Assembly (NCBI GenBank): GCA_022340745.1
Contig: JAJDNL010000240.1
Coordinates: 1-33,558, forward strand
DNA length: 33,558 nt
Direction: 5' to 3'
Source of the DNA: Deltaproteobacteria bacterium
Lineage (GTDB): Bacteria; Desulfobacterota; Syntrophobacteria; BM002
The notes beneath the pieces are model-generated. The model worked only from the letters and a program-made list of their open reading frames with translations, ran no database searches and was not told where the DNA came from. Both the position numbers and the translations under genes were made by a program. The first letter of the stretch is position 1; every line of letters starts with the position of its first letter. Below are positions 1 through 9,846 of the stretch, piece by piece.

Positions 1-158
1 TCCACAACGAGCAATGCGCGCCATCTTATGGCAGTGTCCCTTATGAGAAGGCACCACATCTTCATGCAGACTCTAGCCGGGCGGAGATGTGCACAAAAAG
101 GTTGCTCAGATGCTCGTTGTTTCCCAGCCTCCCCTTTGTCCTTCCTGGTGTTTCTTCT
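1..158 (-). repeat. Dispersed repeat R2, copy 1 (cut by the window edge)
   Basis: Read on the minus strand from 158 down to 1, this stretch aligns with 9622-9780 on the plus strand. It starts with the same AGAAGAAACACC block and ends with TTGCTCGTTGTGGA. In the best-aligned 129 bases I count 24 differences, about 81% identity, with no gap there and one 1-base indel nearer the start. Both copies carry a 10-bp inverted pair, ACAACGAGCA (4-13) and TGCTCGTTGT (111-120). The unit may extend left of the window. Substitutions are not concentrated at third codon positions in the one open frame, so it does not look protein-coding. Its function is unknown. Confidence 0.75.
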
Positions 159-324
159 AAGTGACTGGTGAGAGGCCTGTGACACTTCCGCAGCTGTGGG
201 TGGGGGAGCCCCTGGCCCCGTTCTGCAGGAACGGGGAACAGGGAGGGGGTGCCTTCCCCCGCCTACAGCTGCGTTTGAAGTGACCAGGCCGGAGCCTCTG
301 AACGACAGAAGAAACACCAGGAAG
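141..324. repeat. 184-bp near-palindrome able to form one long hairpin
   Basis: The outer arms, 141-158 and 307-324, are a perfect 18-bp inverted repeat (CTTCCTGGTGTTTCTTCT and its complement). Pairing continues inward with small bulges: GCCTG and CACTTC blocks, then CGCAGCTG, then a G-rich run (197-207) against a C-rich run (255-265). It closes with CCCCGTTC (216-223), a TGCAG loop and GAACGGGG (229-236). Both mismatches in the G-rich stem become G-U wobbles if the plus strand is transcribed. The left arm overlaps the end of repeat R2. No gene lies inside. It could be a structured RNA, a mobile-element remnant or a recombination product. The rest of the gap before bioY (325-515) shows nothing I recognise. 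Confidence 0.8.
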
Positions 325-515
325 ACATTTTCACTTCCATATGAGACCTTAACTGGCGAATAGCTCCAAAGTATAAACATCAATCATCCATTTTTGGGAT
401 AACTCCTGGAGAAAGAACCTCTAAAAGATGGTAATATTACGAAGCCGAACTGGTTTTCTTCTGCTCTTGACCGAGGTAAGCTCTTTGGTTAGGGTTCAAC
501 TCGGTAAAGGGGAGT

Positions 516-1106
516 ATGTCGTTGGTTACTGAAAGTGAAAAGACAAGATGGCTGAGTGCGCGCGAGCTGAGCTTGGTGGCTCTTTTTGCAGCCTTCACTG
601 GCATTGGCGGCTTCATTCGGGTTCCCATTCCCTTTGTGCCCCTTACCTTGCAGACCCTGATGGTCATGTTTTCCGGCGTGATTTTGGGGGGACGGTTAGC
701 TGCTCTCAGTCAGCTAGTCTACATTCTAGTGGGGTTGATGGGCATCCCCATTTTTGCCCATGGGGGTGGACCTGGCTATGTGCTACAACCCACTTTTGGT
801 TACCTGGTGGGTTTTGTCTGTGGTGCCTATGTCATTGGCCGGTTCACTGAAAGGCGAAATCCCTTGACTCGCTCTTTCCTCTGTATGGCTCTCGTGGTCG
901 GCACCATAGCAATCTATATTCCGGGAGTAAGTGTGCTCTATCTCAATTTGAATTTTATTCAACAAAAGGCGGTTTCCCTCAGTACTGCCATGACCATAGG
1001 ATGTCTTGTGGTTCTGCCCGGAGACTTGATCAAGATTGGCGTCGTGCTCTACTTCGGCCCTCTCCTGCGCCAAAAAATCCAGATGTCTAGCCCGGATATT
1101 TCATGA
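516..1106 (+). CDS. bioY: BioY-type biotin transporter substrate-binding subunit
   Basis: This is the integral membrane S component of an ECF-type biotin transporter, which binds biotin and delivers it across the inner membrane. The 196-residue protein is almost entirely hydrophobic segments. It shows the family pattern of an N-terminal helix with FIRVPIP-FVPLTLQTL, then LSQLVYILVGLMGIPIF, a glycine-rich GPGY loop, and PGDLIK near the end. No ECF ATPase or T-subunit gene is nearby, so it would work alone or with shared energising subunits. The GGGGAG sequence lies only one base from the ATG at 516. A TTG at 522, in frame, has the better 7-base spacing and may be the real start. The last six residues (SSPDIS) and the stop codon lie in the terminal repeat of the element beginning at 1088, so the original C terminus may have been replaced. 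Confidence 0.9.
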   Translation: MSLVTESEKTRWLSARELSLVALFAAFTGIGGFIRVPIPFVPLTLQTLMVMFSGVILGGRLAALSQLVYILVGLMGIPIFAHGGGPGYVLQPTFGYLVGFVCGAYVIGRFTERRNPLTRSFLCMALVVGTIAIYIPGVSVLYLNLNFIQQKAVSLSTAMTIGCLVVLPGDLIKIGVVLYFGPLLRQKIQMSSPDIS

Positions 1107-9621: not shown

Positions 9622-9780
9622 AGAAGAAACACCAAGAAGACCAAAGGGGGAGACTGGGAAACAACGAGCACCTGAGCCTCCTGTCTTTACGCATCTCAGC
9701 TTGGCGAGAGCCAGCATGAAGATTTGGTGCATTTTCAAATGCGACACTGCCACAAAATGGCGCGAATTGCTCGTTGTGGA
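9622..9780 (+). repeat. Dispersed repeat R2, copy 2
   Basis: This is the inverted partner of the repeat at 1-158. It begins AGAAGAAACACCAAG and ends TTGCTCGTTGTGGA, with the inner inverted pair ACAACGAGCA (9661-9670) and TGCTCGTTGT (9768-9777). A small GCCA/TGGC stem near the right end is kept in both copies while its loop differs. The large near-palindrome beside copy 1 is absent here. It occupies most of the 402-base gap between the aminotransferase gene and gmhA. An open frame crosses it, but the changes between copies do not look selected for protein. Confidence 0.75.
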
Positions 9781-9846
9781 CGAGCCTTCCCCCTTGGCCA
9801 GTGCCGCTCATAACATTTTTGGGGGAATTCCTGTAGGCGTAACAGT

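Follow-up and report, generated by a model that had tools for sequence, protein, structure and literature searches.

Palindromic mobile repeats and the locus upstream of bioY

Among the short mobile repeats of bacteria, Correia/NEMIS and RUP come close to the element reported here: as described in a review (Delihas, 2007; PMC2229807), they are short, dispersed elements with TIRs and target duplications, the transcripts of which are predicted to form long stem-loops. As tabulated in that review (PMC2229807), they measure ~100-200 bp and have TA termini, whereas the present element measures ~460 bp and is associated with 8-10-bp duplications; a further difference is that its hairpin core is also found in a second backbone with unrelated ends. 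ERIC/IRU, a 127-bp imperfect palindrome of enterobacteria, is likewise intergenic, palindromic, and present in many copies, and ERIC RNA, as summarized there, affects the stability of co-transcribed mRNA in an orientation-dependent manner (PMC2229807). Compared by description and with no sequence relation claimed, ERIC is the most suitable working model for an effect exerted at the RNA level. According to its entry in the review, ERIC has a 7-bp TIR and TA termini (PMC2229807), whereas the palindrome described here is internal to a larger TIR element. The Yersinia palindromic sequence and the Rickettsia palindromic elements (RPEs) are also mobile palindromic repeats; by the review's description they differ from the present element in size, hosts, and ends, and RPEs are also found inside genes (PMC2229807). 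Searches limited to open-access papers and chosen keywords returned no description of the present element family, and the unusual part of this MITE family is a kept hairpin core that is common to differently ended backbones.

The window, that is, the entire 33,558-nucleotide stretch analyzed (contig JAJDNL010000240.1 of a Deltaproteobacteria bacterium, assembly GCA_022340745.1), contains a 184-bp near-palindrome at positions 141-324 that had been interpreted in an initial annotation as a hint of a transcribed, structured RNA. The near-palindrome is the center of a dispersed, non-autonomous, MITE-like DNA transposon and not a single-locus RNA gene. The earlier interpretation holds in part: covariation and a plus-strand fold preference are in its favor, and against it stands the finding that the locus represents a single copy of an element inserted at many dispersed sites, rather than an individual RNA gene.

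Extent, ends, and neighbors of the element

Positions 1-408 (plus strand) cover the MITE-like element except for its left 53 bp; its full length is 461 bp, spanning -52 to 408. The window begins at a contig end, and its positions 1-141 are identical to bases 1-141 of another contig of the same genome (C274), an assembly overlap; the missing left 53 bp of the element correspond to C274 bases 142-194, read backwards, and joining the two yields the length of 461 bp. The element ends, CAGGAGTTTCTCCAAAAATG and CAGGAGTTATCCCAAAAATG, are 20-bp TIRs with 17 of 20 bases alike. The right TIR is at 389-408 (CAGGAGTTATCCCAAAAATG on the minus strand) and its partner, identified by a TIR pattern search, is at C274:175-194. 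The right copy of a 9-bp target duplication, GAGAAAGAA, could be read from the sequence at 409-417, and the left copy is on C274 before the left TIR, with one base between. The flank of the core inside the element at 1-140 (plus strand) can be folded through ACAACGAGCA / TGCTCGTTGT, if weakly (z -2.1); as a candidate second conserved RNA hairpin it was rejected given this weak fold and no consensus fold in 60 copies. A second, truncated copy of the element, which extends from the left TIR to the outer arm without the core and right end, is at 9622-9833 on the minus strand (own-genome match C92:9622-9780, minus; TIR C92:9814-9833, minus).

Downstream, the element is followed by bioY, encoding a biotin transporter (516-1106, plus strand; PF02632); C274 supplies the neighbor at the opposite end, a divergent gene that encodes a UvrB_inter domain (PF17757; Mfd/UvrB type). 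A second MITE-like element is present at 1088-1573 of the window, with perfect 20-bp inverted repeats, TAGCCCGGATATTTCATGAA / TTCATGAAATATCCGGGCTA, that are 446 bp apart and with three 49-bp tandem repeats between its ends. The stop and last codons of bioY come from the left end of this second element, which recurs in relatives (short matches; G008 sequence).

A false palindrome created by assembly at a contig end would be compatible with a window that begins at such an end inside the element and with the 100-N scaffold gaps found within 260 bp of 14 of 19 core matches in 0.8 Mb of the genome of a sister genus (G009). Gaps of this kind are to be expected where a repeated hairpin has to be assembled. 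Moreover, a census of fetched loci from several independent assemblies contained 114 different cores with a length of 110 bp or more, among them complete copies with both flanks, leaving the chance of an artifact negligible. It should be noted that the 'single contig' of G009 contains 64 joins of 100 N in 0.8 Mb.

Structure of the near-palindrome

The architecture proposed in the initial annotation was borne out in nearly all respects. The outer arms at 141-158 and 307-324 (18 nt each) are 100% complementary; they are specific to the backbone, the second backbone having another arm sequence. A G-rich stem at 189-207 / 255-273 (19 nt, 89% complementary) has the two mismatches claimed, 198/264 (G-T) and 201/261 (T-G), both of which would be wobbles in plus-strand RNA, and the hairpin is topped by the 8-bp closing stem around TGCAG (CCCCGTTC-TGCAG-GAACGGGG). 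The pairing had been described as running from the outer arms inward; these stems are present, but the path is interrupted by 159-173 / 288-306, a large internal loop that is unpaired for the most part. The conserved hairpin core, as delimited by a covariance model (R1) and common to the backbones, spans 160-306 (plus strand) and includes an apical hairpin at 216-236, which in other copies reads CCCGCC.../...GGCGGG on both sides with pairing kept.

Folding of 130-335 on both strands, a comparison suggested in the initial annotation, yielded -126.3 kcal/mol for the plus strand (z -9.64; 0 of 200 shuffles equal or better) and -111.8 kcal/mol for the minus strand (z -7.95; all 200 shuffles poorer), and the plus-strand minimum was the lower of the two in 41 of 43 core representatives. 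No match at the gathering score was obtained with Rfam 15 across the whole window, and a permissive Rfam scan of 100-420 returned only sub-threshold matches, the best of which were miRNA-type hairpins and a cobalamin match of 17.5 bits (cut-off 31.5). Scans detected no tRNA in the window and no sigma-70-type promoter, and a terminator scan had no match at the palindrome, the hairpin having no adjoining U-tract.

Dispersal and the search for a transposase

When window positions 1-400 were searched against the organism's genome (3.9 Mb, 301 contigs), 16 matches were returned: the query, the C274 overlap, three reverse-strand matches caused by the palindrome, and 11 other places. The TIR pattern CAGGANTTTCCCCAAAAATG, at up to 3 mismatches, was found at 19 sites in this genome versus 2 for a reversed control, and an 18-base TIR pattern, at up to 2 mismatches, was found at 160 sites in G009 versus 1 for the control. 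All fetched loci together provided 74 TIR-bounded elements with end pairs 60-620 bp apart and without N. Target duplications of 8-10 bp (at most 1 mismatch) flank 41 of these 74, whereas reshuffling the right flanks 200 times gave 0.89 on average and at most 4; the other 33 have no such duplication at that threshold. The TIRs and 8-10-bp duplications in relatives thus indicate a MITE-like non-autonomous transposon, and the element has TIRs, a target-site duplication, multi-copy dispersal, and no transposase gene within its 461 bp. Indels of 1, 2, and 4 bases among copies argue against a conserved reading frame.

Candidate partners were sought with three Pfam transposase families and with scans of TIR pairs, in assemblies that are broken at repeats. 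An ISAs1-type transposase (PF13808), which we took to be suggested by CAGG ends and 8-10-bp duplications, was rejected with matches in 0 of 10 genomes, as was an IS256-type transposase (PF00872; 0 of 10). The DDE_Tnp_1 type (PF01609) was matched in 3 of 5 genomes and was likewise rejected, none of the matches being between paired TIRs of the element; one such match in G009 adjoins a family element but is bounded by ends of another type. Between TIR pairs spaced 800-4000 bp, the ORFs read by eye included no recognized transposase. Many elements called MITEs have no known partner, and given assemblies fragmented at repeats and the gaps near G009 cores, an autonomous copy could be hidden.

Distribution of the core and its backbones

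With the palindrome alone as the query, matches were found in all nine genomes of the genus, and in the sister-genus genome G009 there were at least 42 (two on the reverse strand), with 40 of 93 first-look candidates scored. The model of the ~147-bp core, R1, was built from 43 representatives and, in a class-wide search run under the stricter filters used at that search size, matched 11 of 55 genomes. These all belong to one family, comprising 11 of its 12 members (all nine of the genus, G009, and G011, not G010) and 0 of the 43 other genomes; R1 did not confirm a 27-bp DNA match to G029 (E 8e-4), a genome from outside the family. An exact core pattern had 34 matching stretches among 84,980 named species genomes, all in six MAGs (bin617, bin40, CSMAG_2358, CSMAG_766, BM002, and FCS_29) labeled Deltaproteobacteria, Desulfobacterota, Desulfobacteraceae, or Syntrophobacterales, and had 0 matches among viral contigs.

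Of the 114 core copies in the census, 46 have a CAGGAG-type end on both sides and 36 on one side, 24 are in the second backbone, 6 are in neither type, and 2 are cut by gaps. The second backbone ends in TTACTACGGAGAGCACTAAA / TTATTAATGAGAGCATAATA and has outer arms of a different sequence, GATCATGAAGTCTTTTC / GAAAAGACTTCATGATC; its length is 288 bp (two intact copies measured), and 11 copies with both ends, inspected by eye, displayed no clear target duplication. Among second-backbone copies in G009 (e.g., L069, L072, L079, and L195; ends TTACTACGGAGAGCAC...), some flanks seem to be mutually complementary rather than direct repeats (e.g., CCCAG / CTGGG in L079, GTAG / CTAC in L195), as if this backbone had been inserted into small inverted repeats. 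One G009 core copy is in extended arms starting CTGGACACAGGGGG, a possible third backbone, and the G011 core is in neither known backbone. That the core occurs in two or more backbones whose ends are not related is a hint that there is some benefit in retaining the hairpin itself.

Additionally, G009 contains coreless CAGGAG elements of 325-340 bp in which both outer arms are kept; these fit stem deletion, in one case between AGTGAC repeats (by eye). In loci L189 and L205, an extra stretch of ~40 bp in the 3' strand of the core includes short inverted repeats (GCCATCGCGAGC...GGCGGGCGGGC), which may form another small hairpin nested within it.

History of the site upstream of bioY

The position of the hairpin between bioY and the divergent Mfd/UvrB-type gene is in favor of a locus-specific role, as a structured RNA gene or as a cis-regulator such as a bioY leader. 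The bioY gene is present in all nine genomes of the genus, and elements with CAGGAG ends occupy the interval in at least five of them (G000, G001, G003, G004, and G008), an observation in favor of that interpretation. However, the same core is found at dozens of unrelated loci, no Rfam family was matched at the gathering score, and the core itself is neither constant in orientation nor always present: relative to bioY it points one way in G000 and the reverse way in G001, where the flanks also differ, and in G008, where it has other arms, and it is missing from G003 (a coreless element with its own AGTAAGTGGT duplication), from G004 (an element with the core deleted), and from G006. A locus-specific RNA is therefore very improbable. 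In G006 there is no insert upstream of bioY, and owing to divergence of the sequence next to the insertion point, the comparison is one of presence and absence and not of a base-exact empty site. End remnants at most were seen in G002 and G005, and no element was recognized in G007. The elements in this interval differ in interiors and orientations, which could reflect an insertion hotspot or the exchange of interiors between elements.

Conservation and covariation of the core

In 40 full-length elements, mean divergence from the consensus was 0.141 at 17-140, 0.119 in the outer arms, and 0.262 at 325-405, compared to 0.098 in the core stems and 0.090 in the core loops; stems and loops each diverged less than the combined flanks in 38 of the 40. 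The most conserved core columns include the asymmetric loops AGTGACTGG / GGAACGAC, the AA of GGGAACAGGG, and a 3' GCGCC. Covarying copies in relatives, which the initial annotation had suggested looking for, were indeed found. Across 42 core pairs in 43 representatives, 96.4% of cells are standard pairs, 18 of the 42 pairs have two-sided change, and the apical stem is replaced as a whole, in both of its strands, between copies that keep the pairing. Pairing falls to 38-46% when partners are slid by 1-3 columns, and 0 of 500 shuffles reached any of the five observed covariation measures, figures that are not probabilities since core copies share kinship.

Possible selection at the level of RNA or DNA

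Helix mismatches in 93 copies comprise 87 G-U, 31 A-C (8 of which are an alignment artifact at the apical base), and 77 transversions; by copy, G-U mismatches are the more numerous in 47, A-C mismatches in 11, and the two are equal in 35. Transitional exchanges in core pairs passed through 45 G-U cells versus 6 A-C cells, with two pairs (columns 36/124 and 45/110) accounting for most of the wobble cells. By pair, G-U exceeds A-C in 15 versus 7 with the opposite (p 0.13), and among private substitutions in paired columns (those present in at most 2 copies) 28 make and 32 break a wobble (p 0.70). These data are read as single copies that decay freely and a source-element lineage that kept the pairing, tilted to plus-strand wobble. 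An RNA-level role in source elements would predict both kept pairing and such a tilt, and, judged from the sequences, an RNA-level function of these source elements is plausible. Further, the statement in the initial annotation that so long a palindrome needs a reason to persist is answered for the most part by copy number, some copies losing the stem that the source elements would keep.

The same transposon could exist without any RNA role. Its pairing would then be maintained at the DNA level, through arm-to-arm template switching in replication or conversion among copies, or would be required in transposition as a DNA hairpin or as a site for a protein. A 2022 PNAS study (PMC8794818) reports that RNA hairpins can be generated and maintained by template switching. 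Covariation in a DNA palindrome can also arise in this way, and it does not exclude DNA-level causes. Private changes without wobble preference, stem deletions in some copies, as expected of an unstable DNA palindrome, and apical stems swapped whole on both sides are all consistent with this explanation, and template switching together with simple shared ancestry can produce part of the pairing pattern. DNA template switching is a serious rival to an RNA role. On the other hand, it would be expected to remove differences between the arms, but loop sequences that are asymmetric rank with the best-conserved columns, and one-step copying of an arm would leave no G-U intermediates, yet these are seen in the exchanges of A-U to G-C. 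The conserved asymmetric loops in particular speak against arm-copying alone. Overall, a transposon with no RNA role is considered a substantial possibility, if one held at somewhat below even chance.

The presence of a long GC-rich hairpin between genes speaks for another reading, in which the element carries a transcription terminator or insulator. A naive count of gene orientations initially pointed the same way, with the 5'-side gene in sense in 24 of 75 cases and 8 convergent versus 25 divergent arrangements (p 0.005). Under stricter gene calls, the tandem split was 12 versus 22 (p 0.12) and the convergent/divergent ratio was not significantly off the base rate; the skew is therefore not used as evidence, and a terminator or 3'-UTR role was rejected. 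With no U-tract at the hairpin and no orientation preference surviving the stricter calls, a terminator or insulator is improbable.

The explanation that we favor, with good confidence, is that the near-palindrome is the core of a MITE-like transposon with a hairpin kept by selection on its source elements. First, a transposase acting in trans on CAGGAGTTTCCCCAAAAATG ends would have moved the element. Second, source (master) elements would have been selected to keep the hairpin, most likely via a plus-sense transcript that folds into it; one example would be the protection, cleavage, or protein binding of a read-through RNA. Finally, inserted copies would be free to decay, with stems lost by deletion between short direct repeats.

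Implications for MITE biology

As a more tentative and bolder extension, for which we see perhaps one chance in a few, the ~147-bp core may be a structured RNA module that a number of unrelated MITE lineages of a single bacterial family have picked up and retained. Such a shared 'passenger RNA', to which a protein of the host or of transposition perhaps binds, would be under selection in source elements only. Selection restricted to source elements would explain both the deep covariation and the neutral decay of individual copies. The natural stem variants at defined loci of relatives, namely the two apical stem types and the core-deleted copies, constitute a set in which such roles can be tested. 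Bacterial MITEs are usually viewed as mobile ends with filler between them. If the hairpin core is more conserved than its flanks, covaries, and is present in differently ended backbones, then in this family the interior of the MITE would be the selected part.
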